Source: Nocardioides jiangxiensis (GTDB taxonomy: Bacteria > Actinomycetota > Actinomycetes > Propionibacteriales > Nocardioidaceae). From it: a stretch of DNA of 64,000 bases. Positions within the stretch are counted from its first letter, which is position 1, and each line of letters begins with the position of its first letter. The notes under the pieces were generated by a model that saw nothing but the letters and a program-made list of their open reading frames with translations, had not been told where the DNA came from and did not search any database. The translations under genes and the position numbers were made by a program. The stretch spans positions 248,001-312,000 of the forward strand of contig NZ_JAUQTA010000001.1 of the NCBI RefSeq assembly GCF_030580915.1, in the 5' to 3' direction. Below, one piece after another: positions 11,376 through 50,642 of the stretch.

Positions 11376-11400
11376 GGGGTCCTTGTCGTGGAGGTCGGGG

Positions 11401-12294
11401 TCAGAGGAGGCCGGAGGCGACGAGCCCGGCGCGCAGCGCGGCGTACTCCTCGTCGTCGAGGGCCATCAGCGGCGAGCGCACGGCCCGGTTGTCGAGGACA
11501 CCGAGGGCCTGCAGGGCGCCCTTGGCCGTCGTTGCGCCGTAGTTGGGCACGCCCATGACGGCCTCGAGCGCCGGACGGAGCTTCGCGTCGATCTGCTGCG
11601 CGGTGGCGAGGTCGCCGGCGAGGAAGGCCTCGATCATCGCGGAGAGCTGCGTACCCGCCGCATGGCCCAGCACGGAGACGACACCGCAGGCGCCGTAGGC
11701 CAGGAAGCCCAGGGTCAGCGCGTCGTCACCGGAGTAGACGTCGTAGCCCAGGCTCCGCAGCAGCACCGTGTTGGTGACGTCGGCGGTGGCGTCCTTGACG
11801 GCGATCACCTTGTCGTTGTCGGCGAACGCCTCGTACGTCGACGGCGCGAGGCGGGTGCCCGTGCGGCCGGGGACGTCGTAGAGCATGACCGGCACGTCGG
11901 TGGCGTCCACGACCTGCTGGAAGTGGTGCACGATGCCGGCCTGGCTGGGCTTGTTGTAGTACGGCGTGACGAGCAGCAGCCCGTCGGCGCCGAGCTTCGC
12001 GGCCTGCTCGGCCAGCTCGATGGAGTGCGGCGTGTCGTTGGTGCCGACACCGGCGATCACCTTGGCACGGTCGCCGACCGCGTCCTTGACCGCCGCGAGC
12101 GTGCGGCCGTCCTCGGCCACGGTCGTCGTCGCGGACTCACCGGTCGTGCCGGACACGACGATGCCGTCGTTGCCGTTGTCGACCAGGTGGAGGGCCGTGC
12201 GCGCGATCGCGTCGAGGTCGAGCTCGCCGGTCGGCGTGAAGGCCGTTGCCATCGCGGTCAGCACACGGCCGAAGGGAGCGGCGGGAGCAGTCAT
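11401..12294 (-). CDS. dapA: 4-hydroxy-tetrahydrodipicolinate synthase
   Basis: The 297-residue TIM-barrel aldolase condenses pyruvate with aspartate semialdehyde in lysine and diaminopimelate synthesis. Motifs are GTTGESATT near residue 49 (pyruvate binding), the catalytic tyrosine in VMLYDVPGRTG near 140, and the Schiff-base lysine in VIAVKDATAD near 167. Lysine here feeds protein synthesis, and in this lineage diaminopimelate feeds peptidoglycan. The ATG at 12294 is preceded six bases upstream by TAGCCT, a leaderless -10 box. rnj follows 25 bp downstream. Confidence 0.94.
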   Translation of the reverse strand: MTAPAAPFGRVLTAMATAFTPTGELDLDAIARTALHLVDNGNDGIVVSGTTGESATTTVAEDGRTLAAVKDAVGDRAKVIAGVGTNDTPHSIELAEQAAKLGADGLLLVTPYYNKPSQAGIVHHFQQVVDATDVPVMLYDVPGRTGTRLAPSTYEAFADNDKVIAVKDATADVTNTVLLRSLGYDVYSGDDALTLGFLAYGACGVVSVLGHAAGTQLSAMIEAFLAGDLATAQQIDAKLRPALEAVMGVPNYGATTAKGALQALGVLDNRAVRSPLMALDDEEYAALRAGLVASGLL

Positions 12295-21115: not shown

Positions 21116-23188
21116 ATGGCCACCGAAGTCACCCTGCCGGCACTCGGAGAGTCGGTCACGGAAGGCACCATCACCCGTTGGCTGAAGCAGGTCGGTGACA
21201 CGGTCGCAGTGGACGAGCCGCTGCTCGAGGTCTCCACCGACAAGGTCGACACCGAGATCCCGTCGCCGGTCGCCGGCGTCCTCACGGAGATCCGTGCCTC
21301 CGAGGACGAGACGGTCGAGGTCGGCGCCGTGCTGGCGGTCGTCGGTGGCGAGGGCGAGGCTGCTGCCCCGGCCGCTCCGGCCGCCGAGGCCCCTGCCGCC
21401 CCCGCTGCGCCGGCCGCCGAGGCCCCCGCTGCGCCCGCTGCTCCGGCCGCCCCGGCCGCCCCCACCGGCGCAGCCTCAGGCACTTCCGTGACGCTTCCCG
21501 CCCTGGGCGAGTCCGTCACCGAGGGCACGGTGACCCGCTGGCTGAAGAACGTCGGCGACACCGTCGCCGTCGACGAGCCGCTCGTCGAGATCTCCACCGA
21601 CAAGGTCGACACCGAGATCCCCTCGCCCGTCGCCGGCACCCTGCTCTCCATCACCGCCCAGGTCGACGAGACCCTCGAGGTCGGCGCCGAGCTCGGCGTG
21701 GTCGGCACGGGCGACGCCGCCGCTGCTCCGGCAGCACCCGCAGCTCCCGCCGCACCGGTCGCCGAGGCCCCTGCCCCGGCCGCACCTGCCCCGGCCGCTC
21801 CGGCCGCTCCGGCCGCCGTCGAGGAGGCCCCGGCCCCCGAGCCGGCCGACAACCCGGCCGTCTCCGACGCCGGTTCCGCCAACGGCACGTCGGTGGTCCT
21901 GCCCGCGCTCGGCGAGTCCGTGACCGAGGGCACCGTGACGCGCTGGCTCAAGCAGATCGGCGACGACGTCGCGGTCGACGAGCCGCTCCTCGAGGTCTCC
22001 ACCGACAAGGTCGACACCGAGATCCCCTCGCCGGTCGCCGGCAAGCTGCTCGCCATCAAGGTCCAGGTCGACGAGACCGTCGAGGTCGGCACCGAGCTCG
22101 CTGTGGTCGGCGACGGCGTCGCCGCGGCTCCTGCCGCTCCCGCTGCGCCGGCGGAGGAGGCACCGACCCAGGCCGAGGCGCAGGCCCCGACCAACGAGCC
22201 GATCGCTGCCGCAGCCCCCGCTCCGGCAGCCCCCGCTCCGGCAGCCCCCGCTCCGGCAGCCCCGGCCCCCGCCGCTCCAGCGGCGCCCGCCGCCCCGGCA
22301 GCTCCTGCGGGCGACGCGCCGTCGTACGTCACCCCGCTGGTCCGCAAGCTCGCGGCGAAGAACGGCGTGGACCTGGCGACCCTCAAGGGCTCCGGCGTCG
22401 GCGGCCGCATCCGCAAGCAGGACGTTCTCGACGCCGCGAAGGCCGGCGCCGCTGCTCCGGCTGCCGCAGCGCCCGCTGCCCCCGCCGCCGCTGCCTCGCC
22501 GCTGCGCGGCACCACCGAAGAGCTCAGCCGCCTGCGCCAGGTCATCGGCTCCGGCACCGCAGACTCGCTGCGCACCGCCCCGCAGGGCACCGCGGTCGTC
22601 GAGGTGGACGCCACCGCGATCGCCCGCCTCCTCGAGGCCAAGGGCTCGGACATCGGCTTCACGCCGTTCTTCGCGAAGGCCGCTGCCGACCTGCTCAAGC
22701 AGCACCCGAAGCTCAACGCGCAGATCGACGCCGCGACCAACGTGGTCACCTACTTCGACCACGAGAACCTCGCGTTCACGGTCGACACCGAGAAGGGCCA
22801 GCTCGCCCCTGTCGTCCCGGACGCCGGCAGCCTGACGGTCGAGGCGCTCGCCACCAAGATGGCCGAGGTCGCCGACCGCGCCCGCACGGGGCGGATCACG
22901 CCGACCGACCTGGCCGGCGGCACGTTCACGGTCGCCGACTTCGGCAGCAACGGCGCCCTGCTCGACACCCCGGTCGTGCACCTTCCCCAGGTCGCCGTCC
23001 TCGGCACCGGTGCCGTGGTCAAGCGCGCGGTGGTCATCGACGACGCCGAGGCCGGTGAGTCGATCGCGGTGCGCCAGATGGCCTACGTGACGCTCTCCTA
23101 CGACCAGCGCCTGATCGACGGCGGCGACGCCTACCGGTTCCTCGGCGACCTCAAGGCACGCATCGAGGCGGCTCAGTTCCAGCTCTGA
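21116..23188 (+). CDS. sucB: 2-oxo acid dehydrogenase E2 component with three lipoyl domains and an altered catalytic site
   Basis: This protein has 690 residues. Three lipoyl domains (about 2-77, 123-197, 258-333) carry the lipoylated lysines K43, K163 and K298, each in TDKVDTEIPSPVAG. Ala-Pro linkers separate them. A peripheral-subunit-binding domain (about 404-440) and the acyltransferase domain (463-690) follow. The usual catalytic DHR-x2-DG motif reads DQRLIDGG: codon 664 is CAG, so the catalytic His is Gln. The start of the acyltransferase domain is also divergent (RLRQVIGSGTADS, where RxxIAxRMxxS is expected), and it is shorter than usual. It may serve mainly as a lipoyl carrier. The family is certain, but the choice between succinyl and acetyl transferase is not. 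AAAGGA precedes the ATG. Confidence 0.88.
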   Translation: MATEVTLPALGESVTEGTITRWLKQVGDTVAVDEPLLEVSTDKVDTEIPSPVAGVLTEIRASEDETVEVGAVLAVVGGEGEAAAPAAPAAEAPAAPAAPAAEAPAAPAAPAAPAAPTGAASGTSVTLPALGESVTEGTVTRWLKNVGDTVAVDEPLVEISTDKVDTEIPSPVAGTLLSITAQVDETLEVGAELGVVGTGDAAAAPAAPAAPAAPVAEAPAPAAPAPAAPAAPAAVEEAPAPEPADNPAVSDAGSANGTSVVLPALGESVTEGTVTRWLKQIGDDVAVDEPLLEVSTDKVDTEIPSPVAGKLLAIKVQVDETVEVGTELAVVGDGVAAAPAAPAAPAEEAPTQAEAQAPTNEPIAAAAPAPAAPAPAAPAPAAPAPAAPAAPAAPAAPAGDAPSYVTPLVRKLAAKNGVDLATLKGSGVGGRIRKQDVLDAAKAGAAAPAAAAPAAPAAAASPLRGTTEELSRLRQVIGSGTADSLRTAPQGTAVVEVDATAIARLLEAKGSDIGFTPFFAKAAADLLKQHPKLNAQIDAATNVVTYFDHENLAFTVDTEKGQLAPVVPDAGSLTVEALATKMAEVADRARTGRITPTDLAGGTFTVADFGSNGALLDTPVVHLPQVAVLGTGAVVKRAVVIDDAEAGESIAVRQMAYVTLSYDQRLIDGGDAYRFLGDLKARIEAAQFQL
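22211..22255 (+). repeat. Three perfect 15-bp repeats in the E2 linker
   Basis: GCAGCCCCCGCTCCG is repeated at 22211, 22226 and 22241. It encodes an Ala-Pro hinge of the third linker. Slippage here would change linker length without a frameshift. Confidence 0.85.
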
Positions 23189-23197
23189 CCCCGCCTC

Positions 23198-23238
23198 ACG
23201 ACGAAGGCCCGCACCGTCCCGGTGCGGGCCTTCGTCGT
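23198..23238 (+). terminator. Strong hairpin terminator after the E2 gene
   Basis: A perfect 18-bp stem (23198-23215 with 23221-23238) closes on the five-base loop GTCCC, ten bases after the E2 stop. There is no long T run, as is typical of high-G+C actinobacteria. It separates the E2 gene from the membrane-protein module. Confidence 0.85.
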
Positions 23239-23350
23239 TCCTGCGACACGGATGGAGGAATTGCCTCGGAGGAAACACCCCGAAGTGCTTCCCGCGCGGT
23301 GTGATCAGCGCCATTGTGGGCCCAAGGACTCCCCTGCCCCAGGAGGCACG

Positions 23351-25264
23351 ATGCCGCTCCCCCTCGTCACCCCGGCCACACCGCCCGCAGGGGGCGCTGC
23401 GTTCCACGAGATCCTGATCGCCGCCGGCATCGCGGGAGTGGTCATCCTCTTCTTCGGCTGGGTGACGCTGATGGAGCGCACCAACCGGCCGACGTTCGTC
23501 GGGCGGCTCGCCGACTGGGCGGCGAAGATCTCCGGCCTCCCCCGCTGGGTGGCGCTGCCGATCGTGCTGGGCCTGGTCTCCATCGCGTCGGCCGCCTGGG
23601 GCGTGTGGTGGGACGTCCCGATCCACATGCAGCGCGGCCGCGACTCGGGGCCGCTGGCCAACCCGAGCCACTACCCGATCTTCCTCGGCATCCTCGGCTT
23701 CTGCCACGCCGGCATCCTGTCGATGGCCCTGGCCCGCGACCCGCTGCCGCGGCACACCATCAGGCTCGCCCCCGGCTGGCGTACGCCGCTGGGCGCCGTG
23801 ATCATCACCGGCGCCGGCTTCATCGCACTCGTGGGCTTCCCCGCCGACGACATGTGGCACCGGTTCTTCGGCCAGGACGTCACCGAGTGGGGCCCGACGC
23901 ACACGATGATGATCGGCGGTGCGGTGACCTTCGTGCTCGGCGTACCGCTGCTGCTCGCGGAGGCCGCGCAGGTCAGCACCGGACCTGGCCGGGCCCTGCT
24001 CGCCCGGCTCTTCGGGCACCGCGTGGTCACCGGTCTCGCGATCGCGATCTGCGGGATCCCGTTCGCGTTCCTGATGGAGTTCGACCTCGGTGTGCCGCAG
24101 TTCCCGGCCGTCACCGAGTTCATCATCTTCGGCTTCCTGGCCGCCTGGATCTGCACGTCCGTGCGGCTGTGGCTGGGCCCCGGCGGTGCCCTGCTGGTCG
24201 CCGGCGGCTACCTCTTCATCCACGCGGCGCTGTGGGTCAGCATCGCGGTCCTCCCCGACGTGCTGCTCGCCCGCTTCCTGCTGCTGGTCCCGTCGGCGCT
24301 CATCGTCGAGGCCGTCGGGCTGGCGCTGCGCCCCAACAAGAACAAGCGCGCCATCCCGTTCGCACTCGTCTCCGGCGCGCTGGTCGGCTCCCTCGGCATG
24401 TACGGCGAGTGGCTGTGGTCGAAGGTCTTCATGCCACTCCCGCAGCCCTTCAACGCCGATGCACTGCCCTTCCTGCTCGGTGTCTCCACGGTCGCCGGCC
24501 TCGGCGGCGGGTTCATGGGTCTCTGGATGCGCAGCCGGATCACGCTCGCCGGCAGCGCGGACGCGCCGAGCGACCCGAAGCAGCTGCGCTACCGCGGCTT
24601 CGGACTGGTCGGCCTGGTGGTCTTCGTCGGGCTGATGGGCGCCTTCGGAGTCCCGCACGAGGGCGACACCTACGCGGGCACCATCACCTACAGCGACGTC
24701 TCCACGGGCGGCACGCAGTGCGACGGCGTCCACCGCTGCCTGGCCCGGGTGACGGTGACCTTCCAGGGCGAGGACATGGCGAAGGACGCGATCTGGTTCT
24801 ACGCCCTCGCCTGGCAGGGCAACCCCAAGCACGGCGCCGGCAGCGACGTACCCACCGATCCGACCGCACACGTGCCGGGAATCGTCCGCACGGCGCTCGA
24901 GCCCACCGGGAAGCCGGGCCAGTACGCGACCAAGGACCCGGTGCCGGTCTACGGCACCTGGAAGACCCTGCTCCGGCTGCACCGTGCGCCGAGCCAGATG
25001 GTCTCGTTCCCGATCTACGCGCCCGACGACCCGGCCATCAAGGCCGCCACCGGCCGCCAGGTGCTCGTCGACAACGGCGCCACCGTCAAGACGGAGCTCG
25101 AGAGCAAGTTCCTGCAGCGCGAGAAGAAGGACAACATCCCCGCCTGGGCCTTCACCCTCGGCTACCTCCTGGTGCTGGCCACCTGGATCGCGATGTTCCT
25201 CTTCTACGGCTGGTGCTACAACCGGGCCGCGACCGGCCGGCGTACCGCCACGGACGAAGGCTGA
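23351..25264 (+). CDS. Uncharacterised multi-pass membrane protein, paralog 1 of 3
   Basis: I do not know a described function for this 637-residue protein. About ten hydrophobic segments fill residues 15-440. A beta-rich extracytoplasmic domain (about 445-600) and a last membrane helix (about 605-630) follow. Motifs shared with the two downstream paralogs are WDVPIHMQRGRD (near 88), NPSHYPIF (near 105), RDPLPRHTIRLAPGW (near 133) and DDMWHRFFGQDVTEWGPTH (near 166), plus EFDLGVPQFPA. Conserved His, Asp and Glu in DDxWH...EWGPTH look like possible metal ligands. Two Cys in the beta domain (TQCDGVHRC) are also conserved. The ATG at 23351 has AGGAGG. Paralog 2 starts five bases downstream. Confidence 0.8.
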   Translation: MPLPLVTPATPPAGGAAFHEILIAAGIAGVVILFFGWVTLMERTNRPTFVGRLADWAAKISGLPRWVALPIVLGLVSIASAAWGVWWDVPIHMQRGRDSGPLANPSHYPIFLGILGFCHAGILSMALARDPLPRHTIRLAPGWRTPLGAVIITGAGFIALVGFPADDMWHRFFGQDVTEWGPTHTMMIGGAVTFVLGVPLLLAEAAQVSTGPGRALLARLFGHRVVTGLAIAICGIPFAFLMEFDLGVPQFPAVTEFIIFGFLAAWICTSVRLWLGPGGALLVAGGYLFIHAALWVSIAVLPDVLLARFLLLVPSALIVEAVGLALRPNKNKRAIPFALVSGALVGSLGMYGEWLWSKVFMPLPQPFNADALPFLLGVSTVAGLGGGFMGLWMRSRITLAGSADAPSDPKQLRYRGFGLVGLVVFVGLMGAFGVPHEGDTYAGTITYSDVSTGGTQCDGVHRCLARVTVTFQGEDMAKDAIWFYALAWQGNPKHGAGSDVPTDPTAHVPGIVRTALEPTGKPGQYATKDPVPVYGTWKTLLRLHRAPSQMVSFPIYAPDDPAIKAATGRQVLVDNGATVKTELESKFLQREKKDNIPAWAFTLGYLLVLATWIAMFLFYGWCYNRAATGRRTATDEG

Positions 25265-25269
25265 GAACC

Positions 25270-27177
25270 GTGCTGGCGGACGCTGCGGCTCCGACCGCGG
25301 GTGGTTCGTCGTTCAGCGACATCGCGCTCGCGACGGGGATCGCCGCACTCTTCTACCTGCCCACGGGCTGGGTGATCGTGCGCGAGCGTCTCGGGCACCC
25401 GACCGTCCTCGGGCGCTTCTCCGACGTGCTCGGCACGCGGATCGGCCTGCCGGGCTGGGCTGCGGTCCCCGTCCTGATCATGGTTCCGGTCTGGCTGGTC
25501 GCCGCGGCGGTCTACTGGGACGTGCCCCTCCACCTCCAGAAGGGGCGCGACCCGGGGGCGCTGGCGAACCCGAGCCACTACCCGATCTTCCTGGCCCTGA
25601 TCTTCTTCAACTGCCTCGGCCTGCTGGTGATGGCGCTCGCCCGCGACCCGCTTCCCCGGCGCACGCTGCGCCTGGCTCCGGGGTGGCACGTCCCGTGGAG
25701 CTCGGTGATCCTCACGCTCTCGGGCTTCATCGCCGTCGTCGGCTTCCCGCTCGACGACCTCTGGCACCGCCTCTTCGGCCAGGACGTCACCGAGTGGGGC
25801 CCCACGCACGTCCTGATGATCGGCGGTGCGGTCACCTCGATCTTCAGCGTGCCGCTCATGCTCGCCGAAGCCCAGCAGACCGGCGCCCGGCTGATGAACG
25901 GTCCCGCCGGCCGTTGGGTGATGGCGAGCTTCCTGTCGCTGAGCATCGTCTGCTCGGTCTTCCTGATGGAGTTCGAGCTCGGCCTGCCCCAGTTCCCGGC
26001 TCCGACGGAGTTCATCATCTTCGGCTTCGTCATCACCTGGACCGCGATCGGGGCCCGCCTCTGGTTCGGGCCTGGTGGCGCGCTGGTCACCCTCGCCTGG
26101 TGGTGGATCATGCGTGGCTACCTGATCGGCGCTGCCGCGCTCATCCCCGACATCATGTCGATCCGGTCCTTCAGCGCCGTGCCCGCCACGGTCACCATCG
26201 AGGCCGTCGCCCTGGCCTTCGGCGTACGGCGAGGCGCGCGCAGCGTCGTCCCGTTCGCGGCGACGGCTGCGGTCGTCTCCGGCACGCTCGGCCTCTGGCT
26301 CGAGTTCCAGTGGTCGAAGCACGTGATGACGCTGCCGCAGCCCTTCGACGCCTCCGGGCTGCCGCTCTACCTCACCGTGGGCACGCTGGCCTCACTGGCC
26401 GGAGCCCTCGTCGCGACCTGGCAGGTGCGCCGCCTCGTCCTCGTCGCCTCGGACCCCCGCGCCACCGCGGCACTACCCGACATGCCGCGCGGGCGTCGGT
26501 GGTACGGCCTGACGGGGTTCCTCGCGCTCGTCGCGCTGATGGCGGTCTTCGCGCCGCCCGGCGGCGCCGCCCCGAGCAGGGCGACGGTCACCTGGAGCGA
26601 CGCGAGCAACGGCGAGGGAGAGTGTCCGGCCACGTCGGAGCGCTGCCTCGCCACCCTCACGCTCACCCTGGAGGACCCGTCTGTCGTGCACGACGCGGCG
26701 TGGTTCTACGCCCTCTCGTGGCAGGGGAACCGCGCAGGTGAGACCGACGTCCCGCGCGACCCGGTGGCCGACGTGCCCGGCATCGTGCGCGCCCGGATGC
26801 TCCCGACCGGCGAACCCGGGGTCTACCGCTCCTCGGTGCCGCTCCCCGTCTACGGCCAGTGGAAGACGATGGTCCGGCTCCACACCCTCCCGCGCACGAT
26901 GATGGCCTGGGCGCTCTACATGCCCGACGACCCCGCGATCAGCAGCAGCCGCGGGCGGCTCGTCCACGCTGCGAGCGGCGCGGTCGTCTCCAGCCACTTC
27001 GAGCCCGAGCTGCTCCAGCGCGAGCGCCGCGACGACGTCCCCACCTGGCTCTTCGACGCTGGCAACGGGGCGGTGTTGTGCCTGTGGGTGCTCGTCCTGC
27101 TCGGCTACGGACGGTGCTACAACCTCGCCGCCGCGCCCCTGCAGGGAAGGCGGAAGCCCGAACCTACGGCGGCGTAG
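25270..27177 (+). CDS. Uncharacterised multi-pass membrane protein, paralog 2 of 3
   Basis: The 635-residue protein is collinear with the genes on both sides: the same membrane region, the motifs WDVPLHLQKGRD, NPSHYPIFL and DDLWHRLFGQDVTEWGPTH, and the same C-terminal domain with a Cys pair (GECPATSERC) and WFYALSWQGN. A terminal helix (LCLWVLVLLGYGRCYN) ends the protein. GTG 25270 is chosen as the start: it lies five bases after the paralog 1 stop, and its ribosome site GAAGG lies at the end of that gene. No enzyme motif is visible. The late YGQWKTMVRLH region resembles the PxxGxWxxxV edge strand of FixH/YtkA-type domains, which is an inference. Confidence 0.8.
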   Translation: MLADAAAPTAGGSSFSDIALATGIAALFYLPTGWVIVRERLGHPTVLGRFSDVLGTRIGLPGWAAVPVLIMVPVWLVAAAVYWDVPLHLQKGRDPGALANPSHYPIFLALIFFNCLGLLVMALARDPLPRRTLRLAPGWHVPWSSVILTLSGFIAVVGFPLDDLWHRLFGQDVTEWGPTHVLMIGGAVTSIFSVPLMLAEAQQTGARLMNGPAGRWVMASFLSLSIVCSVFLMEFELGLPQFPAPTEFIIFGFVITWTAIGARLWFGPGGALVTLAWWWIMRGYLIGAAALIPDIMSIRSFSAVPATVTIEAVALAFGVRRGARSVVPFAATAAVVSGTLGLWLEFQWSKHVMTLPQPFDASGLPLYLTVGTLASLAGALVATWQVRRLVLVASDPRATAALPDMPRGRRWYGLTGFLALVALMAVFAPPGGAAPSRATVTWSDASNGEGECPATSERCLATLTLTLEDPSVVHDAAWFYALSWQGNRAGETDVPRDPVADVPGIVRARMLPTGEPGVYRSSVPLPVYGQWKTMVRLHTLPRTMMAWALYMPDDPAISSSRGRLVHAASGAVVSSHFEPELLQRERRDDVPTWLFDAGNGAVLCLWVLVLLGYGRCYNLAAAPLQGRRKPEPTAA

Positions 27178-27300
27178 ATCACACGTCCAGACGCTGACCT
27201 GTAACTCCGTGTCCGACTAACCTGAGCGCATTCCGGTGTGTGTAACCCGGCGTCATGGACATCTGTGACCTGGGCCTCACCGCAGACTCAGGAGAACCTC

Positions 27301-29253
27301 GTGATCCACACCCTTGCGCCGCTCGCTGCTGCGCCCGCGGCACCGAACGCCGGAGGCGCGGCACTGTCCGACGTCCTCACGGCGACCGGCATCGCGTCGG
27401 TCTACTTCGCCTGCACCGGCTGGATCCTGGTGCGCGAGCGCATCCAGGGGAAGCGCACCGCGCTCGGCCGCGTGCTCGACGCCTTCGGCGCGAAGATCGG
27501 CCTGCCTGGCTGGGCTGCCGCGCCCTTCGTCATCACCCCGCCGTTCCTGCTCCTGGCCGGCTTCGGCGTCTACTGGGACGTGCCGCTGCACATGCAGAAG
27601 GGCCGCGACGACGGTGCCTTCGCCAACCCCAGCCACTACCCGATCTTCCTGGCGCTCATGGCGCTGCTGAACATCGCCATGCTGATCATGGCACTGGCCA
27701 AGGACCCGCTGCCGCGGCACACCCTGCGCCTGGCGCCCGGCTGGAAGGTCCCCTTCAGCTCGGTGGTCATCTTCCTCGCCGGCTTCATCGGCGTGCTCGG
27801 CTTCCCGCTCGATGACGTCTGGCACCGGATCTTCGGTCAGGACGTCACCGAGTGGGGCCCGACGCACGTGCTCATGATCGGCGGGGCGATCACGGCGCCG
27901 TGGAGCATGCCGCTGCTCCTCGCCGAGGCGAAGCAGATCGGTGCCCCCCTGATGACCGGCCGTGGTGGCCGCTGGGTGATGGGCCTCGCGCTCGCGCTCT
28001 GCATCGTCCCGTTCGCGTTCCTCATGGAGTTCGACCTGGGTGTCCCGCAGTTCCCGGCGTCGACGCAGGGGCTGATCTTCAGCTTCGTGCTCGGCTTCAC
28101 CTGTGTCGCCACCCGCCTGTGGTTCGGCAAGGGCGGTGCCCTGTTCGTCAGCGCCCTCTGGGTCGGCGCCCACCTGTTCCTGGTCGGCGTCGTCGCGGTC
28201 CTGCCGCACGTCCTGACGATCCAGTTCCTCACCAGCGTCCCGTTCGCCGTCCTCGTCGAGCTGGTCGCCCTCGCCTTCGCCGTCGACCGCGACGCCGCCC
28301 GTCGACTGCCCTTCGCCGTCGTCGCCGGTGTGCTCGGCGGTTCGCTGGGCTACTACCTGGAGTGGGTCTGGTCCAAGGACCACATGCCGCTGCCCCAGCC
28401 GTTCAACGCGCACGCGCTGCCGTTCCTGCTGGTCGTGAGCACCGTCGCCGGCCTCGGTGGCGGTCTGCTGGGCGTCTGGAAGGTCCGCCGCCTGGAGAAC
28501 GTCGCCGACGTCGAGGTCACCGCGTACGGCGCCGCCGTCCCGGCCGCCACGTTCCGCTGGTTCGGCCTGGCCGGCTTCGCCACGTTCGTGGCCCTCATGG
28601 CCGTCTGCGCGCCGCCGATGAAGGGCGACGTCCACACCGCGACCGTGCACCTGAGCGACGTGTCGACCGGCGCGACGAACTGCACCGCCTACGAGGTGCA
28701 GTGCCTGGCCACCGTGACGCTCCACATCGACGGCAAGGACCCCGTCCCGGACGCCACGTGGTTCTACGCGCTCTCGTGGCAGGGCTATCCCGGCACCGAC
28801 GCCTTCGAGAAGGTCTCCGACATCCCGACCGATCCGGACGCCCACGTCCCGGGCCTGGTCCGCGCGCGGATGCTCCCGACCGGCGAGCCGGGCACCTACC
28901 GCTCGGAGCATCCGCTGCCGCTCTACGGCCAGTGGAAGTCGCTCATCCGCATCCACGAGGGCACCAACGACATGATGTCGTGGGCGCTCTACATGCCCGA
29001 CGACCCGGCGATCACCAGTGACCGGGGCCGCGAGGTGCGCGTGCTCGACGGTGACTCGATCGCCTCGCAGTACGAGCCGCACCTGCTCCAGCGCGAACGC
29101 AAGGACTCCATCCCGGAGGGCCTGTACGCCGCCGGCAACTACGTCGTGATGTCGCTGTGGATCCTGGTGCTCCTCGGCTTCGGCTACAGCTACAACGCGG
29201 CTGCCGGAACAGGTCGACGCAAGGCCTCCGCCTACGAGAAGGTGAGCGCATGA
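27301..29253 (+). CDS. Uncharacterised multi-pass membrane protein, paralog 3 of 3
   Basis: The 650-residue protein has the same architecture as paralogs 1 and 2: WDVPLHMQKGRD near residue 94, NPSHYPIFL near 111, DDVWHRIFGQDVTEWGPTH near 172, EFDLGVPQFPA near 246 and PLPQPFNAHALPFLL near 365. The C-terminal beta domain has Cys in ATNCTAYEVQC. GTG 27301 has AGGAGA upstream. A 123-bp gap before it could hold a promoter, so this gene may head an operon of its own. Its stop overlaps the short-chain dehydrogenase start (ATGA), tying the membrane protein to the enzymes that follow. I do not recognise the function. Confidence 0.8.
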   Translation: MIHTLAPLAAAPAAPNAGGAALSDVLTATGIASVYFACTGWILVRERIQGKRTALGRVLDAFGAKIGLPGWAAAPFVITPPFLLLAGFGVYWDVPLHMQKGRDDGAFANPSHYPIFLALMALLNIAMLIMALAKDPLPRHTLRLAPGWKVPFSSVVIFLAGFIGVLGFPLDDVWHRIFGQDVTEWGPTHVLMIGGAITAPWSMPLLLAEAKQIGAPLMTGRGGRWVMGLALALCIVPFAFLMEFDLGVPQFPASTQGLIFSFVLGFTCVATRLWFGKGGALFVSALWVGAHLFLVGVVAVLPHVLTIQFLTSVPFAVLVELVALAFAVDRDAARRLPFAVVAGVLGGSLGYYLEWVWSKDHMPLPQPFNAHALPFLLVVSTVAGLGGGLLGVWKVRRLENVADVEVTAYGAAVPAATFRWFGLAGFATFVALMAVCAPPMKGDVHTATVHLSDVSTGATNCTAYEVQCLATVTLHIDGKDPVPDATWFYALSWQGYPGTDAFEKVSDIPTDPDAHVPGLVRARMLPTGEPGTYRSEHPLPLYGQWKSLIRIHEGTNDMMSWALYMPDDPAITSDRGREVRVLDGDSIASQYEPHLLQRERKDSIPEGLYAAGNYVVMSLWILVLLGFGYSYNAAAGTGRRKASAYEKVSA

Positions 29254-30155
29254 GCAAGGACATCGACCAGGTCATCCTGATCACCGGTGGCGCACGCGGC
29301 ATCGGAGCTGAGACCGCCAAGGCGCTCGCGGCGCGCGGCGCCCGCCTGATCCTCACCGACCTCGACCGCGCGGCTCTCGACGAGACCGTCGCCGCCATCG
29401 GTGCCGACAAGGCGCTCGGTGTCGTCGCCGACGTCTGCGACCTGCCGTCGATGGAGGCGGCGGTCGCCGAGGGCGTGGCGAAGTTCGGCCGCCTCGACAG
29501 CGCGATCGCCAACGCCGGCATCGCCAGCTACGGCTCGGTGCTCAACACCGACCCGGCCGCGTTCAAGCGGGTCATGGACATCAACGTCCTCGGCGTCTTC
29601 CACACCGCCCGCGCCACGCTGCCCGCGCTGATCGAGTCGCAGGGCTACTTCCTCGTGGTCAGCTCGCTCGCCGCCTTCGCGGCAGCGCCGGGCCTGGCGG
29701 CGTACAACGCGTCGAAGGCCGGTGCGGAGCACTTCGCCAACGCGCTGCGCCTCGAGGTCGCCTACCAGGGCGTCGACGTCGGCTGCGCACACATGTCGTG
29801 GATCGACACCCCGCTCGTGCGCGACGCGAAGTCCGACCTGCCGGCTTTCCAGACCCTGCTGACGAAGCTCCCCTACCCGCTCGGCAAGACGACCAACGTC
29901 GAGGCCTGCGTCAACGCGTTCGTCAAGGGCGTCGAGAAGCGGTCCCGGCACGTCTACTGCCCGGGCTGGGTCCGCGGCGTCGGCCTCAACCGCAACGTGG
30001 TCAACTCGGCCGCCGGCGCGGTGGCCGTCCTGCGACACGTACCGACCCTGCTGCCCCAGATGGACCGCGAGGTGGCAGCCTTGGGCCGCGCCACCAGCGC
30101 CCGCAACATCGCCAACGACGCCAGCGACGCCGCTGCCGTTGACACCAAGGAGTGA
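29250..30155 (+). CDS. Short-chain dehydrogenase/reductase
   Basis: This 301-residue classical SDR has TGGARGIG at the nucleotide site (about residues 12-19), Asp at the end of strand two (LTDLDRA), suggesting NAD preference, NAGIASYG near 89 and the catalytic Ser plus YNASK (near 140-160). The C-terminal 60 residues are longer than in minimal SDRs and carry a hydrophobic stretch, which may associate with membrane. The ATG overlaps the stop of paralog 3 and has GAGAAGG upstream. The EthA-like gene follows within six bases. An SDR beside an EthA/MymA-type monooxygenase suggests successive oxidation of an alcohol to a ketone and then to an ester; the substrate is unknown. Confidence 0.9.
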   Translation: MSKDIDQVILITGGARGIGAETAKALAARGARLILTDLDRAALDETVAAIGADKALGVVADVCDLPSMEAAVAEGVAKFGRLDSAIANAGIASYGSVLNTDPAAFKRVMDINVLGVFHTARATLPALIESQGYFLVVSSLAAFAAAPGLAAYNASKAGAEHFANALRLEVAYQGVDVGCAHMSWIDTPLVRDAKSDLPAFQTLLTKLPYPLGKTTNVEACVNAFVKGVEKRSRHVYCPGWVRGVGLNRNVVNSAAGAVAVLRHVPTLLPQMDREVAALGRATSARNIANDASDAAAVDTKE

Positions 30156-30160
30156 CCCAG

Positions 30161-31612
30161 ATGAGCGAAGCCACGCACCTCGACGTGCTGATCGTCGGCG
30201 CCGGCCTGTCCGGCATCGACGCCGCCGTGCACGTGTCGAAGGCCTTCCCCGCCAAGAGCTACGCGCTCCTCGAGATGCGCCAGGAGCTCGGCGGCACCTG
30301 GAGCCTGTTCAAGTACCCGGGCCTGCGGTCGGACTCCGACATGTACACCCTCGGCTTCGGCTTCCGCCCGTGGACGGGCAAGGACGCCATCGCCGACGGC
30401 AAGGACATCCTGCAGTACCTCAAGGACACCGCTGCCGAGTACAAGGTCGACCAGCACATCCGCTACGGCCGCAAGGCCACGGCGTACTCGTGGTCGTCGG
30501 AGGACAACCTCTGGACGGTGACGGTCGAGGACGTCGAGACCGGCAAGACCCAGAAGCTCACCGCGAGCTTCCTGGTCAACACGACCGGCTACTACAACTA
30601 CGAGGCCGGCTACACCCCGGAGTTCCCGGGCGCAGCCGACTTCAAGGGCCAGATCGTCCACCCGCAGCACTGGCCCGAGGACCTCGACTACACGGGCAAG
30701 AAGGTCGTCGTCATCGGCTCGGGTGCCACCTCGATCACGCTGATCCCGTCGATGGCCCCGGATGCCGGGCACATCACGATGTTGCAGCGGACCCCGACGT
30801 ACATCATCAGCCAGCCGAAGATCGACCCGGTCGCCTCGGTCCTGAAGAAGACGCTGCCGGCGAGCGTCGCGGCCAAGGCGATCCACGCCCGCTACGCGTC
30901 GGTCACCATCGGCTTCTTCGAGTTCGCGCGCCGCCAGCCGAAGGCGACGAAGGCGCTCATCAAGCGCTGGGCGAAGATCCACCTGCCGAAGGACTTCGAC
31001 TACGACAAGCACCTCGTCCCGCCGTACAACCCCTGGGACCAGCGCCTGTGCGTCGTGCCGGGTGCCGACCTCTTCAAGGCGATCCACAGCCACAAGGTCG
31101 ACATCGTCACCGAGCACATCGAGAAGTTCGACGAGACCGGCATCCTGCTCAAGAACGGCCAGCACCTCGACGCCGACATCATCGTCACGGCGACGGGCCT
31201 CGACATCCAGATGTTCGGCGGGGCCGACGTCGAGGTCGACGGCCGGAAGGTGGACCTCGGCAAGACGTTCACCTACAAGGCGCTGATGCTCAACGACATC
31301 CCGAACTTCGCCTTCATCATCGGCTACTCCAACGCGTCCTGGACGCTGAAGGCCGACCTGGTCTGCGAGTACATCGTCCGCCTGCTCGACTACATGGACG
31401 AGAACAACTTCACCAAGGTCGTCCCGGTCGTCGACGGCGGGCTCGAGGCCGAGGACATCATGAAGCTGGACTCGGGCTACCTGGCCCGTGCCGCGGACAA
31501 GATGCCGAAGGCGGGCAACCGCGACCCGTGGCGCCTGAAGCAGAACTGGTACTTCGACAAGAAGTTCATCCAGAAGTCCCCGCTGGTCGACAGCGAGATC
31601 CACTTCAGCTGA
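30161..31612 (+). CDS. EthA-like FAD-dependent Baeyer-Villiger monooxygenase
   Basis: The 483-residue flavoprotein is closely similar along its length to M. tuberculosis EthA: LDVLIVGAGLSGIDAAVH at the N-terminus, YPGLRSDSDMYTLGF, HPQHWPEDLDYTGK and PPYNPWDQRLCVVPGADLF are nearly the same. The BVMO fingerprint FxGxxxHxxxW is present as FKGQIVHPQHW near residue 165, followed by the second Rossmann motif VVVIGSGATS. Such enzymes insert oxygen next to a carbonyl using NADPH. The native substrate is not known. The ATG at 30161 has AAGGAG eight bases before it, so it is preferred to GTG 30152. It is the last gene of the module. Confidence 0.92.
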   Translation: MSEATHLDVLIVGAGLSGIDAAVHVSKAFPAKSYALLEMRQELGGTWSLFKYPGLRSDSDMYTLGFGFRPWTGKDAIADGKDILQYLKDTAAEYKVDQHIRYGRKATAYSWSSEDNLWTVTVEDVETGKTQKLTASFLVNTTGYYNYEAGYTPEFPGAADFKGQIVHPQHWPEDLDYTGKKVVVIGSGATSITLIPSMAPDAGHITMLQRTPTYIISQPKIDPVASVLKKTLPASVAAKAIHARYASVTIGFFEFARRQPKATKALIKRWAKIHLPKDFDYDKHLVPPYNPWDQRLCVVPGADLFKAIHSHKVDIVTEHIEKFDETGILLKNGQHLDADIIVTATGLDIQMFGGADVEVDGRKVDLGKTFTYKALMLNDIPNFAFIIGYSNASWTLKADLVCEYIVRLLDYMDENNFTKVVPVVDGGLEAEDIMKLDSGYLARAADKMPKAGNRDPWRLKQNWYFDKKFIQKSPLVDSEIHFS

Positions 31613-31700
31613 CCCGTCATCGAGGCCGAAAGGCACCGATGACGACCAACGGCCGGAAGGCCTCTAGGCAGCGTTACCGGCGACCCGGCAGAGTGGGAGC

Positions 31701-32600
31701 GTGCAGCTCCTGCTTGCCGGGTCGTCCGGCTTTCTCGGCACCCACCTGACCGATGCCCTGCGTGCGGACGGGCACGACATCACCCGACTGGTACGCCGCA
31801 CCCCGGCCGCCGCCGACGAGGTGCAGTGGTCCCCCGCTGACAGGGACGTGCCCCAGGACGTCGTCGACGCCGCCGACGTGGTGATCAACCTCTGCGGCTC
31901 CCCCACCGCGGGCAACCCGCACTCGCGGCGCTGGGCCTCGGACCTGCGCACCAGCCGGGTCGACGCGACGCGCACGCTCGCGGCGGCGGTCGCGCGCTCG
32001 CACGAGCAGGGGTCCGGCCGCCCGGCGCTCTTCAACGGCAGCGCTGTCGGCTACTACGGCGACCACGGCACGCGCCTCGTGGCCGAGGCCAGTGACTCGG
32101 TCGGCGGCTCCTTCATGACCTCGGTCGTGCGCGAGTGGGAGGCGGCCACGACCGTCGCCCGCCACGCCGGCGCCCGGGTCTGCCTGCTGCGCACGGCCCC
32201 GGTCATGGACCGCGACAGTGCCCCGCTCAAGCAGCTCCTGCCGGTCTTCCGACTCGGCCTCGGCGCCCGCCTCGGCGGGGGCTCGCAGTACTTCCCGATG
32301 GTCTCGCTGCGCGACTGGGTCGGTGGGGTGCAGCACCTGCTCGGCACCGGCCTGGCCGGCCCGGTCAACCTGTGCTGCCCGATGACGCCGACCAACACCG
32401 AGTTCACCCAGGCGCTGGCCGACGCGGTGGGCCGACGCGCGCGCCTCGCCGTACCGTCGAAGCTGATCGAGGCAGGTGCTGGGCGGATCTCCCCCGAGCT
32501 GCTCGGCTCCTGCCGCGTGACGCCGCTCGCCCTGCGGTCCACCGGCTACGTCTTCCGCGACCACGACGTGCGGGACGTCATCTCCGCGGCAGTACGCTGA
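31701..32600 (+). CDS. TIGR01777-type NAD-dependent epimerase/dehydratase family protein
   Basis: This 299-residue extended-SDR-fold protein has a Rossmann start [32 protein letters not shown] (near 55), [10 protein letters not shown] (near 114) and a C-terminal DUF1731 region ([20 protein letters not shown]). It resembles SulA/YfcH and the Rv2216 type. No reaction has been established. In mycobacteria this gene sits between the E2 gene and lipB; here it lies directly before lipB, but the E2 gene is 8.5 kb away across the membrane module. The GTG at 31701 has a purine-rich GGGAGC upstream. An 88-bp gap separates it from the EthA-like gene. Confidence 0.85.
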
Positions 32601-39345: not shown

Positions 39346-40512
39346 ATGGAGACCGTGTGGGAGCCCTTCCGGATGGCGGCTGCGATGGGCTGGGAGATCC
39401 TGTGGCCCCTGATCCTCGGCTTCGCGCTGTCGGGGGTCGTGCAGGCCGTCGTCCGCCGCGACGCGGTGGTGGCCCGCCTCTCCGGCGACTCCCCGCGCGC
39501 CCTGCTGTGGGCGACCGGGCTGGGAGCTGCGTCGAGCTCGTGCTCCTACGCAGCCGTAGCCCTGGCCCGGTCCTTGTTCCGCAAGGGCGCTTCGCTCACC
39601 GCCGCCATGGCGTTCGAGATCGCCTCGACCAACCTCGTGGTCGAGCTCGGCATCATCCTGTGGCTGCTGATGGGGTGGCAGTTCACCCTCGCCGAGTTCA
39701 TCGGCGGCCCGGTGATGATCGTCGTGGTCGCCGTCTTCTTCCGCCTGTGGATGCGAGGACGCGTCATCGAGGCGGCGCACGCCCAGGCGGAGAAGGGGCT
39801 GCTCGGCGCCATGGAGGGTCACGCCGCGATGGACATGTCCGTCGGCGGACCCGCGTCGTTCTGGCGTCGGCTGTTCTCGCCGAAGGGCTTCACCGCCGTC
39901 GCGCACTTCTACGTGATGGACTGGGCGTCGGTGGCCCGCGACATCCTGATCGGGCTGCTCATCGCGGGGGTCTTCGCTGCGTGGGTCCCCACCTCGTGGC
40001 TCGAGAGCTTCTTCCTCAGCGACAGCGAGACGTGGGCACCGATCTGGGGGCCGGTCGTCGGCCCGCTGGTGGCGGTGGTGAGCTTCGTCTGCTCGATCGG
40101 CAACGTGCCCCTCGCGGCCGTGCTCTGGAACGGCGGCATCAGCTTCGGTGGGGTGATCTCGTTCCTCTTCGCCGACCTGCTCGTCGTCCCGATCCTCGTC
40201 ATCTACCGGCGCTACTACGGCACGGCAGCGGCGCTGCGGATCACCGGCTTCTTCTACCTCGCGATGGTGATCGCCGGGTATGCCATCGAGGTGCTCTTCG
40301 GAGCAGCCGGGCTCACGCCGGAGCACCGCAGCGCGACCGTCATGGAGGCCGGCTTCACCTGGAACTACACGACCTGGCTCAACCTCGCGTTCCTCGCGCT
40401 GAGCACCGCCCTGGTCTGGCGCTTCTTCCGGACCGGCGGCCCGGCGATGCTGCAGATGATGCGCACGCCACCGCCAGCCGAGCACCACCACCACGCGCAT
40501 GCACCGGAGTAG
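39346..40512 (+). CDS. ArsP/UPF0718-family permease with a His-rich tail
   Basis: This 388-residue protein has about eight membrane helices in two halves. It has the family motifs GLGAASSSCSYAAVALARSL (near 53) and SFVCSIGNVPLAAVLWNGG (near 246), in which conserved Cys and Ser sit in the membrane. ArsP members export trivalent organoarsenicals, but many relatives are uncharacterised. The last residues (PPPAEHHHHAHAPE) are a metal-binding-type tail. The ATG at 39346 is chosen because the frame upstream runs through the acetyltransferase gene. The stop overlaps the glnA promoter. Nothing ties it functionally to nitrogen genes. Confidence 0.75.
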   Translation: METVWEPFRMAAAMGWEILWPLILGFALSGVVQAVVRRDAVVARLSGDSPRALLWATGLGAASSSCSYAAVALARSLFRKGASLTAAMAFEIASTNLVVELGIILWLLMGWQFTLAEFIGGPVMIVVVAVFFRLWMRGRVIEAAHAQAEKGLLGAMEGHAAMDMSVGGPASFWRRLFSPKGFTAVAHFYVMDWASVARDILIGLLIAGVFAAWVPTSWLESFFLSDSETWAPIWGPVVGPLVAVVSFVCSIGNVPLAAVLWNGGISFGGVISFLFADLLVVPILVIYRRYYGTAAALRITGFFYLAMVIAGYAIEVLFGAAGLTPEHRSATVMEAGFTWNYTTWLNLAFLALSTALVWRFFRTGGPAMLQMMRTPPPAEHHHHAHAPE

Positions 40513-40521
40513 GGTTCCAGC
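40510..40521 (+). promoter_or_regulatory. Leaderless -10 box of glnA, overlapping the permease stop codon
   Basis: TAGGGT (40510-40515) contains the TAG that ends the permease gene and lies six bases before the glnA ATG. The gap of nine bases has no good ribosome site. glnA could be read both from this promoter and by readthrough from the permease. Confidence 0.5.
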
Positions 40522-41940
40522 ATGTTCACGACCCAGGACGATCTGCTCCGCTTCATCAAGGACGAAGGCGTCGAGATGGTCGACGTCCGCTTCGTCGACC
40601 TGCCGGGCATCGAGCAGCACTTCACCGTGCCGGTCTCCTCGTTCGACGAGTCGGTCTTCGAGAACGGCCTCTCCTTCGACGGCTCCTCGATCCGCGGCTT
40701 CCAGGCCATCAACGAGTCCGACATGTCGCTCTTCCCCGACGTGACCACGGCCTACATCGACCCGTTCCGGGTGGCGAAGACGCTCGTGCTGAGCTTCTTC
40801 ATCCACGACCCGATCACGGGCGAGGCCTACTCCCGCGACCCGCGCAACATCGCGCGCAAGGCGCAGGCCTACCTCGCCTCGACGGGCATCGCCGACACGG
40901 CGTACTTCGCCCCGGAGGCGGAGTTCTACATCTTCGACTCGGTCCGCTACGCGACCTCGGCCAACGAGGGCTTCTACCACATCGACTCCGTCGAGGGCTG
41001 GTGGAACAGCGGCAACGAGGGCGAGAACCGCGGCTACAAGACGCGCTTCAAGGGCGGCTACTTCCCCGTCGCGCCGTACGACCACTTCACCGACCTGCGC
41101 GACGAGATGGTGAAGAACCTCGAGGGCGCGCAGCTGCTCGTCGAGCGTGCGCACCACGAGGTCGGCACGGCCGGTCAGGCTGAGATCAACTACCGCTTCG
41201 ACACGCTGCTCAAGGCCGCGGACGACGTGATGAAGTTCAAGTACATCATCAAGAACACCGCGTGGGAGGCCGGCAAGTCGGTCACCTTCATGCCCAAGCC
41301 GCTCTTCGGTGACAACGGCTCCGGCATGCACGTCCACCAGTCCCTCTGGAACGGCGGCGAGCCGCTCTTCTACGACGAGACCGGCTACGCGGGCCTCTCG
41401 GAGATGGCGCGCCACTACATCGGCGGCATCCTGCGCCACGCGCCCGCCCTCCTGGCGTTCACCAACCCGACGGTCAACTCCTTCCACCGCCTGGTGCCGG
41501 GCTACGAGGCGCCGATCTCGCTGGTCTACTCCTCGCGCAACCGCTCGGCGTCCGTGCGCATCCCGATCACCGGTGCCAACCCGAAGGCCAAGCGCATCGA
41601 GGCCCGCTTCCCCGACCCGTCGGCGAACCCCTACCTCGCCTTCTCGGCCCTGATGCTGGCCGGCCTGGACGGCATCAAGAACAAGATCGAGCCGGCCGAG
41701 CCGATCGACAAGGACATCTACGAGCTCCCGCCGGACGAGATGGCCGAGATCGCCCAGGTGCCGACGTCGCTCAACGCCGTGCTCGAGGCACTGGAGGAGG
41801 ACTCCGACTTCCTGACCGAGGGCGGTGTCTTCACCCAGGACCTGATCGAGACGTGGGTGGACTACAAGCGCACCCAGGAGATCGCTCCGGTGCAGCTGCG
41901 TCCCCACCCGCACGAGTTCGAGCTGTATTACGACATCTGA
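40522..41940 (+). CDS. glnA: Glutamine synthetase type I (GlnA)
   Basis: The 472-residue enzyme is a type I-beta dodecameric synthetase. Motifs are [17 protein letters not shown] (near 51), [10 protein letters not shown] (near 131), the ATP motif [18 protein letters not shown] (near 257) and NRSASVRIP (near 338). The adenylylation tyrosine is Tyr400 in [10 protein letters not shown], so it should be switched by GlnE. It is the ortholog of GlnA1 of M. tuberculosis by position after lipA, DUF4191 and RDD genes. The 3' end is the insertion point of a mobile element: the final codons (GTATTACGACATCTGA) recur almost unchanged at 50661-50676. Confidence 0.97.
41925..41940 (+). repeat. Left attachment-site repeat (glnA 3' end)
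   Basis: GTATTACGACATCTGA spans the last codons and stop of glnA. Its partner at 50661-50676 differs only at the fifth base. Confidence 0.7.
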
Positions 41941-41966
41941 TTCGCAGGTCTCGCTGACCTGCGCGT

Positions 41967-42023
41967 CGGCGCCTGACCTGGGAAAACGTCTTCCAACGTC
42001 TTCCAGCGTCAGGCGCCGTTTTT
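41967..42023 (+). terminator. Rho-independent terminator downstream of glnA
   Basis: CGGCGCCTGAC (41967-41977) pairs with GTCAGGCGCCG (42008-42018) over a 30-base loop, and TTTTT follows. The loop holds two copies of CGTCTTCCA. It lies inside the left end of the element. Confidence 0.75.
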
Positions 42024-42115
42024 CATCCTTGTGCGTACCCAGTGCACCCCACGGGACCACGCGCAGCGTCGTCATTCGGCAGCCCCACCGCGCATACGCC
42101 TGTTAGACATAGATC

Positions 42116-42481
42116 ATGCCTGCACGAGCTAACCGAAAGTGGTCGCGCGAAGAGACCGTCATCGCCTTCGAGGTCTTCCAGAAGCACGGGCTAGCGAGTA
42201 AGACCAGCCCCGAAGTGCTGGCTCTGAGCACAACGCTCCGGGATCTTGCAGAGGCCCGTGGCGAGGAGATCACGGCCAACTTCCGCAACCCCGCTGGCTG
42301 CGCGATGAAGCTCGGCCACTTCCTCTACGTGACGACCGACGGCAAGCAAGGCCTGTCAGGGCACGGCGCGATGGACCGCGAGGTTGTCGATCGATTCCGA
42401 CACGACGCCCTTGGGCTCGAGCTGGCAAGCAGCGACGCCAAGGGCCGGCAAGCTTCTGTCGCCGCAAGAGCTCCCGGTTGA
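42116..42481 (+). pseudogene. N-terminal fragment of a ScoMcrA-like (HNH/type IV restriction) head domain
   Basis: Residues 1-92 (NRKWSREETVIAFEVFQKHG, then FRNPAGCAMKLGHFL and GLSGHGAMDREVVDRF) match the head domain found at the start of ScoMcrA-like and other HNH restriction nucleases. The conserved pattern FRNPxGxAMKLGxF is clear. After DREVVDRF the family similarity stops, the last 29 residues look random, and no HNH or SRA domain follows. I read it as a remnant of a restriction gene brought by the element. The ATG at 42116 opens a full domain, so expression of a short protein is possible. G+C is visibly lower than in the flanks. Confidence 0.6.
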
Positions 42482-42704
42482 GCTTCCGGTTGGATACGCG
42501 ACAGACGACCTAGCGAACACCGTCGATGCCACGCTGAAGCTCGTCACTACTCCTCAGATCGCCGGCACGCCGATCGTCCAGCCAGCCCTCAAGCCACTCG
42601 GCGAGATGCTCAAGAACGACGCACCGTTCACGATTCCGCGCTACCAGAGATCGTATTCGTGAACCGAGGACGAGGTGGAGCGGGAGACGTCCGCGTCACC
42701 TTGA
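42384..42704 (+). pseudogene. DUF262 (GmrSD-like) fragment interrupted by a stop codon
   Basis: This frame contains KPLGEMLKNDAPFTIPRYQRSYS and then TGA at 42660-42662, followed in frame by TEDEVE. DUF262 proteins begin with a short helix and IPxYQRxYSWTxxEV, so the TGA stands exactly where the conserved Trp (TGG) is expected. The frame then closes at 42704 after 14 more codons, and the rest of the gene is missing. DUF262 is the DGQR-nuclease domain of type IV restriction proteins such as GmrS/GmrD. Overlap with the end of the preceding fragment suggests two old restriction genes collapsed together. Confidence 0.65.
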
Positions 42705-43736: not shown

Positions 43737-43826
43737 GAGGATCCCGACTGTTCGCAGATGGCGCCGCCGGGGTCCGAGGTGGCCTCGATTCGAGGCTACT
43801 CCCCCGACCCTGAGGTGGGTGGAAGC

Positions 43827-44547
43827 GTGAAGACCACGGCCCAGATCCTCGCGGCGATCGACGCCGCGGCCGGGCCGGGGCGGTCGCCCCCGGAGTTGCT
43901 GTGCGTCGACTGCACCACGGCACTCGGGCTGAGCGGTTGCGTGATGGCGCTCATGAACGATGCCGGTCATCAGGGGGTGGTCGGAGCCTCGGGCGGGGTC
44001 GCCGCCCAGTTGGAGGACCTCCAGTTCGAGTTGGGCGAGGGGCCGAGCGTCAACGTGTCTCACTTCGCGCGCCCCGTCTTCCATTCCGACCTGGTGACGG
44101 CCGGCGAGATGTCGGCATGGCCGGGGTTCGGACCCGAGGCGGTGGGCGCTGGAGTGCGGGCGGTGTTCGCGTTTCCACTCCAGGTGGGCGGCGTGCGTCT
44201 GGGCACGCTCTGCCTGTATCGCTCGACCGCTGCTCAACTTGATCGCGAGGGAGATGGCGAGCGCCCTCGCCTACGCCGATGCCGCGCTGGTGGTGCTTCT
44301 GCGTCTGCAGGCCGAGATGCAGCCGGGATCAGTGCTCCATCCCGACCTGGGCGAGCCGTTGGAATACCGCGCCGAGGTCCACCAGGCGACGGGGTTTCTC
44401 TCGGTTCAGGCGTCGGTCGGTCTCACGGACGCCCTGCTGCTACTTCGGGCCCATGCGTTCGCCGGCGAGCGTTCCCTCCTGGAAGTCGCGCGTGACGTGC
44501 TGGCGGGGCGTCTTCGCATTCCTCTGGAAGAAGACGAAGATGACTGA
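43827..44547 (+). pseudogene. GAF-ANTAR regulator split by a one-base frameshift
   Basis: The first part (from GTG 43827, reading KTTAQILAAIDAAAG, to about 44250) is a GAF domain with LELGEGPS-like FELGEGPSVNV and VFAFPLQVGGVRLGTLCLY. The second part, in the next frame (from about 44250 to TGA 44545-44547), has ALAYADAALVVLLRLQ and an ANTAR RNA-binding domain (YRAEVHQATGFLSVQASVG). Removing one G from the run near 44250 (GCGAGGGAG) would restore a continuous DREEMASALAYAD reading. ANTAR proteins act by antitermination. This is either a true mutation or a sequencing slip; without correction the product is a GAF domain with an unrelated tail. Confidence 0.7.
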
Positions 44548-44592
44548 CATACCCGCCCGCGACATTCGTCAGACCAATAAGAGGCCACTCTC

Positions 44593-45315: not shown

Positions 45316-45381
45316 CTCCCCGCATTAGGCGGGAGGGGCCGGCAGAGAGGGGATCTCGCCAGTCGCTGACGAATGCGGCCC

Positions 45382-50626: not shown

Positions 50627-50642
50627 GCGTTTTCGCAGGTCA

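Follow-up and report, generated by a model that had tools for sequence, protein, structure and literature searches.

What is the role of three adjacent, homologous membrane proteins that are encoded directly upstream of a short-chain dehydrogenase/reductase (SDR) and a class B flavin monooxygenase of the Baeyer-Villiger type (BVMO)? The question is raised by a five-gene module of Nocardioides jiangxiensis, a soil-type actinobacterium, located in a 64,000-nucleotide stretch of contig NZ_JAUQTA010000001.1 (positions 248,001 to 312,000; "the window" is this whole analysed stretch, to which coordinates refer). All five genes lie on the forward strand: paralogue 1 (23351..25264, 637 residues), paralogue 2 (25270..27177, 635 residues, GTG start), paralogue 3 (27301..29253, 650 residues, GTG start preceded by AGGAG), the SDR (29250..30155, 301 residues, ATG start) and the BVMO (30161..31612, 483 residues, ATG start). 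The best explanation, to which we assign a probability of about 0.6, is that each of the three membrane proteins is a remote, single-chain relative of the copper membrane monooxygenases (CuMMO), with which bacteria oxidise methane and ammonia, and works as a copper oxygenase that feeds the SDR and the BVMO.

The layout of three collinear membrane genes followed by an SDR and a BVMO had been described in the original prediction, and the coordinates agree with it: paralogue 2 begins five bases past the end of paralogue 1, the ATG of the SDR at 29250 lies inside the end of paralogue 3 with a four-base overlap (ATGA), and five bases separate the SDR from the BVMO. This spacing supports a compact module. 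Between paralogues 2 and 3 there is a genuine gap of 123 bases; neither a sigma-70-like promoter nor a terminator emerged from a consensus scan of positions 22900-32000, so that the earlier idea of two promoters neither gains nor loses support.

Relative to paralogue 1, identity is 48% for paralogue 2 and 52% for paralogue 3, and all are collinear. A fourth copy is present in the same genome (3.0 Mb, two contigs) on contig 1 at 495485-497377 (about 495 kb), and a pattern-based scan of public genomes returned 49 loci with relatives; the likeness of the three paralogues is therefore far beyond chance. Among 83 aligned family members, none shorter than 450 residues and with near-identical sequences kept, the polar residues that are strictly conserved in the N-terminal third include D88, H92, R97, D98 and H107, and D166, H170, D176 and H184 (numbering of paralogue 1). 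These form two clusters, sitting at helix ends, that match both copper sites of PmoC in order and spacing. In PmoC of the particulate methane monooxygenase (pMMO), the CuC site is D156-x3-H160-x12-H173 with R165 near, and the CuD site is N227-x3-H231-x13-H245 (PMC12576850). Compared with these ligands, paralogue 1 carries a CuC-like motif D88-x3-H92-x4-R97-D98-x8-H107 (23612..23671) and a CuD-like motif D166-x3-H170-x13-H184 (23846..23902), with Asp where pMMO has Asn227. The corresponding motifs lie at residues 84-103 (25519..25578) and 162-180 (25753..25809) of paralogue 2, and at residues 93-112 (27577..27636) and 171-189 (27811..27867) of paralogue 3, counted from the GTG at 27301 (numbers from the upstream start are 12 higher). 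D88, H92 and H107 are kept in 82 of 82 family rows, and H170 and H184, with the x3-H-x13-H spacing of CuD, in 83 of 83. The sequences NPSHYPIF and GQDVTEWGPTH, which had been reported as identical across the paralogues and do occur in all three, are the second halves of the two clusters.

For comparison, canonical AmoC genes were taken from plasmids and from three of 246 genomes of the phylum; all nine aligned AmoC show D-x3-H-x4-RD-x6-H and N-x3-H-x13-H. The CuC-like histidines are separated by 14 residues in the window's copies, 13 in L096 and 12 in L128/L130, the canonical number being 12. A joint two-site pattern matched 116 of 127 open reading frame (ORF) records of the family (from overlapping loci) and 13 of 1315 other ORF records, all of them AmoC (seven distinct genes, loci again overlapping); because the pattern was written after both families had been seen, it is a specific description and no independent test. 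L128 (5068-5922) and L130 (1-996, minus strand) represent a distant branch, about 330 residues long, that has both D/H/H motifs with the exact PmoC spacing and stops ahead of the beta-sandwich described below; this branch may link the family to PmoC.

The fold points in the same direction. The N-domain (residues 1-214 of paralogue 1) has a predicted PmoC/AmoC-like fold, and the first match that it retrieved was PmoC. In a profile alignment (hhalign), the family N-domain (82 rows) matched nine AmoC with a score of 37.6 (P 1e-4, probability 57%, 97 columns), with D88, H92, R97-D98 and H107 in register with their AmoC counterparts; a broader family profile reached 39.8 (probability 69%). Thirteen controls (AmoA, AmoB, reversed AmoC, reversed AmoA and nine unrelated membrane protein families named by eye, of which nuoN, mfs, nuoL and dmt were single sequences and amtB and alkB two sequences each) gave a top score of 21.4, and the best of 200 shuffled AmoC alignments (100 column-wise, 100 in blocks of eight) scored 24.3. 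We regard homology of the N-domain to PmoC as very probable. For the middle helical domain (residues ~211/218-408, 24002..24574), a PmoA-like nature is likely; hhalign of this domain against AmoA, and of the C-terminal domain against AmoB, gave scores at control level. Further on, a beta-sandwich (about residues 439-558, 24665..25024) is placed between two further helices, the last of which spans residues 598-627; the sandwich is CrdA/CopC-like and also generically immunoglobulin-like. Foldseek with the whole chain gave no match under E 0.001.

The membrane family had been said to lack a described function, and databases bear this out: no Pfam or NCBIfam model scored above cut-off for the three paralogues, phmmer against the PDB with paralogue 3 found no match, and the annotation of a relative encoded by a Mycolicibacterium vanbaalenii plasmid reads "hypothetical protein". 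Of the named relatives, the one closest to the family genes is from Nocardioides jejuensis (93% identical). Viral contigs contained no relative of the family and none of AmoC, and phage records no AmoC match. The family has very probable relatives in PmoC and AmoC. Among the matches listed from the open-access literature (subscription papers and preprints lay outside the search), no title or opening of an abstract described a CuMMO that is fused or single-chain; neither "fused" nor "fusion" appears in the main text of PMC6215863 or PMC12533140, and "fuse" is absent from PMC9038741.

The two downstream genes are more readily assigned. The SDR matches NCBIfam NF004526 above cut-off (386 versus 276 bits). 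BVMOs are recognised by the fingerprint FxGxxxHxxxW[P/D] and by belonging to an FMO-like family; the window's enzyme contains the fingerprint as FKGQIVHPQHWP and matches PF00743 (E 4e-13), and its best PDB relative is OTEMO, over residues 5-215. The protein may resemble EthA/MymA, with which it shares the arrangement of a short class B monooxygenase adjoining an SDR; EthA/MymA loci are not known to contain the membrane partner. An SDR and a BVMO beside a predicted oxygenase also recall the modules for subterminal oxidation of propane and ketones (monooxygenase, alcohol dehydrogenase, BVMO), whose first oxygenase is a soluble diiron enzyme, whereas the window's candidate would be membrane-bound and of copper type, and no esterase was found among the five genes. 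The bacterial subterminal route from alkanes via ketones and BVMOs is established (PMC4192553; PMC6215540), and the acetone monooxygenase of Gordonia TY-5 is an example of a BVMO in such modules (for a Gordonia BVMO, see PMC6215540).

The gene layout, the invariant motifs, the predicted PmoC-like fold and the linkage to a BVMO in several lineages are observed; copper, oxygenase activity, substrate and order of steps we infer as follows. The CuD-like site (Asp, His, His) would bind copper and activate O2, with electrons that, by analogy, come from the quinol pool; a hydrophobic substrate would be hydroxylated at an unactivated C-H bond. The SDR would then turn the secondary alcohol into a ketone, into which the BVMO would insert oxygen to give an ester, to be cleaved by a general esterase. 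The chemistry is assigned to the CuD-like site because recent work favours CuD in PmoC as the active site of pMMO (PMC11194816). That the membrane proteins are oxygenases we consider probable; the passage of their product to the SDR and then to the BVMO is a tentative proposal with slightly less than even chances. Of the earlier guesses about the membrane proteins, co-oxidation of a hydrophobic substrate is favoured by the evidence, and no finding suggests supply or transport. Three protomers make up pMMO, and by analogy one might speculate that the three paralogues form a mixed trimer.

Of 296 genomes sampled from the phylum, 34 had a family match (three of these with a partial match or the distant short branch only), as did 10 of 58 genomes of nearer relatives, the window's own being included in both counts. 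Neighbours were counted in 80 loci, several of which come from one genome; short or duplicate fetches (L001-L004, L055-L083, L104, L136), canonical ammonia monooxygenase (AMO) loci (L111-L126), L128-L131, and L097 and L133, for which the gene caller gave no family ORF, were left out. The gene caller was a simple codon-usage script, with missed or mis-started genes likely (it missed AmoC in L121 and L125, and the regular expression missed the called AmoC in L126). Up to four genes away from the family gene, 10 of these loci have a BVMO-type gene, 9 an SDR, 8 a MerR regulator, 23 a small cupredoxin-like protein and 25 a membrane protein of 400-440 residues; the figures for 360 genes further out are 0, 1, 0, 0 and 1, respectively. 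Fisher's test gave p = 0.009 for the BVMO and 1.7e-5 for the cupredoxin-like protein, with genes taken as independent, which the near-identical Amycolatopsis loci are not. Two of the small neighbour proteins were scanned, and one matches Cupredoxin_1, below cut-off.

The window's order of family gene, SDR and BVMO recurs in four other loci, all from Nocardioides (L005-L008), of which L005 and L006 have three family copies each and L007 and L008 one. Nocardioides jejuensis 18JY15-6 and N. phosphati share the order of all five genes. Five further loci (L084, L093, L103, L105, L107) link the family to a BVMO in other gene orders, e.g., family-BVMO-SDR in L093, family-BVMO in L107, and family-BVMO with the SDR further on in L103. 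A quick tree was built from 76 rows, after removal of 12 Amycolatopsis loci that were near-copies, of duplicate fetches and of ORFs below 280 residues; it placed the BVMO label in one Nocardioides clade and, scattered, in these five loci; L103 and L128/L130 are on long branches, and the placement of L103 is unsure. The label requires at least seven changes (six gains and one reversal, the latter for the off-module copies L054 and L015), compared with a shuffled mean of 14.6, and none of 500 shuffles was as low. Given the several scattered places and the differing gene orders, the link between the family and the BVMO arose or was retained several times, and most members do without it.

Several results weigh against homology to PmoC, against strict membership of the CuMMO or against the module as a general unit. 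hhalign of the N plus middle domain against AmoC fell to a probability of 16% (P 0.0016), and a narrower 50-row family profile to 7.8% (P 0.0044); the latter retrieved no PmoC in an hmmsearch of the PDB, in which the AmoC profile found 14 PmoC/AmoC sequences. The CuD-like motif did not come into register with AmoC in the profile alignments, and its first position is D166 in 82 of 82 rows, where the CuMMO have asparagine. No AMO-type model appeared for the three paralogues in NCBIfam at E 1, nor for 50 family members among the families listed from Pfam at E 10. The CuB site of PmoB consists of one His near the N-terminus and a His-x-His pair (H48, H153 and H155 in four of four canonical PmoB), and some CuMMO lack it; in residues 412-637 of the family, His reaches 30% of rows at no more than two positions, 415 (35/83) and 544 (70/83), and no CuB site is present. 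The CuMMO are encoded by three genes, xmoC, xmoA and xmoB (PMC6215863), whereas each of the window's copies is one chain. A search of the window's genome with two models, AmoC (PF04896, E 0.001) and Monooxygenase_B (PF04744, E 1), found neither. Finally, the original prediction had looked to the neighbours of homologues, and their count goes against the module as a general unit: 70 of the 80 loci have no BVMO within four genes, and we reject the five genes as a conserved unit of the family.

Membership of the CuMMO in the strict sense is likewise rejected: the three genes, CuB, the CuD asparagine and a match to curated models are all wanting, and the window's copies differ also in the spacing of their CuC-like histidines. 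What the family shares with pMMO, AMO and the actinobacterial hydrocarbon/butane monooxygenase (XmoCAB) is the order of CuC and CuD ligands in a PmoC-like domain, a probable PmoA-like helical domain and, in some lineages, copper-type neighbours. Like PmoC in its predicted fold and in its histidines, it most likely works as a CuMMO does.

The principal rival accepts the PmoC fold and the copper and denies the oxygenase: the protein would bind, pass on or sense copper together with CopC and cupredoxin-like proteins as its partners, and the SDR and BVMO would be a separate ketone pathway on the same transcript. The frequent cupredoxin-like and 400-440 residue neighbours, a CopC gene adjoining the family gene in L127, the CrdA/CopC-like sandwich and the many loci without a BVMO are all as this explanation would have it. 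We nevertheless think it unlikely, because two complete pMMO-type motifs are invariant over diverse sequences, because the BVMO linkage at six places in the tree (one unsure) is left unexplained, and because copper accessory proteins accompany canonical systems too (PMC6189053). A single-chain copper oxygenase might also act on a ketone, or on the product of the BVMO or SDR, and not on a hydrocarbon, so that the order of steps would differ. This is a serious alternative because a verrucomicrobial pMMO is known to oxidise acetone to acetol, methane and propane not being oxidised by acetone-grown cells (PMC8630023), and the variable gene order (SDR before BVMO in Nocardioides, after it in L093) suits it; we rate it somewhat lower still. 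A transporter or lipid-supplying protein is very improbable and was rejected: the protein is multi-pass, and transporters are included in the whole-chain Foldseek result, all of them weak (TM below 0.25 among the 50 matches listed), yet the D/H/H clusters at helix ends are invariant, no transporter profile scored above cut-off, and the N-domain retrieved PmoC first.

Other surroundings of the family genes are recorded here. On its two sides the module has a gene that by eye encodes a sucB-like acyltransferase and a TIGR01777 gene, the latter followed by lipB-like and lipA-like genes (by eye). In a metagenome-assembled genome of the Nocardioidaceae (L050, 6341-13322), the family gene is near sucB and TIGR01777/lipB, with neither SDR nor BVMO, and the module may have been built stepwise at this site; there the family gene comes after an alpha/beta hydrolase-like ORF, and L009 (8002-12098) also has hydrolase-like neighbours (by eye). 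The fourth copy (L054, 8483-10390, minus strand) adjoins a lipoprotein-like ORF of about 350 residues (10550-11605, minus strand) with no Pfam family above cut-off, as does the N. jejuensis copy (L015, 8995-10902) one of similar size. In L089, L091, L092, L094, L095 and many of L024-L051, the family gene adjoins the 400-440 residue membrane protein, which has no Pfam family and occurs in at least two separate clades, mostly alongside a small cupredoxin-like lipoprotein. On the M. vanbaalenii JOB5 plasmid (L127, 7964-10725), DUF305 and cytochrome c oxidase assembly genes are near the family gene and its CopC neighbour. MerR-type regulators up to four genes away, mostly divergent, were seen in L084, L085, L098, L101, L102, L107, L109 and L134. 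In several Nocardioides (L016, L017, L018-L023), family genes are near ammonium transporter/PII-like or glutamine synthetase/GlnE-like genes (by eye; in L016, L019, L022 and L023 judged by ORF sizes only), which may be chance gene order. Elsewhere in the window, positions 40000-52000 have a G+C content of 66-68% compared with 69-73% in the remainder, and the ORF at 49616-50626 resembles a tyrosine recombinase (by eye), so this may be an integrated element.

Taken furthest, single-chain copper oxygenases would form a widespread and unrecognised actinobacterial superfamily of working single-polypeptide enzymes, with a shorter, sandwich-less branch (L128/L130), in which PmoC sites and a PmoA-like scaffold suffice without CuB and with an Asp-type CuD, several lineages using them to start a subterminal oxidation that ends with a BVMO and the window's copies forming a mixed trimer; for this extended proposal the odds are a little below even. 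Which copper site of pMMO and AMO does the chemistry has long been disputed, and a natural relative in which the CuC- and CuD-type motifs are kept, CuB is lacking and Asn is replaced by Asp would be a direct test of the active-site question. pMMO resists recombinant expression, and a single chain could ease it compared with three membrane subunits. If true, the difficult three-subunit enzyme would have a single-chain cousin, so far unrecognised and perhaps easier to study, which would extend the CuMMO world past the operons found with xmoCAB models and provide predicted oxygenases for many of the 34 genomes with family matches.

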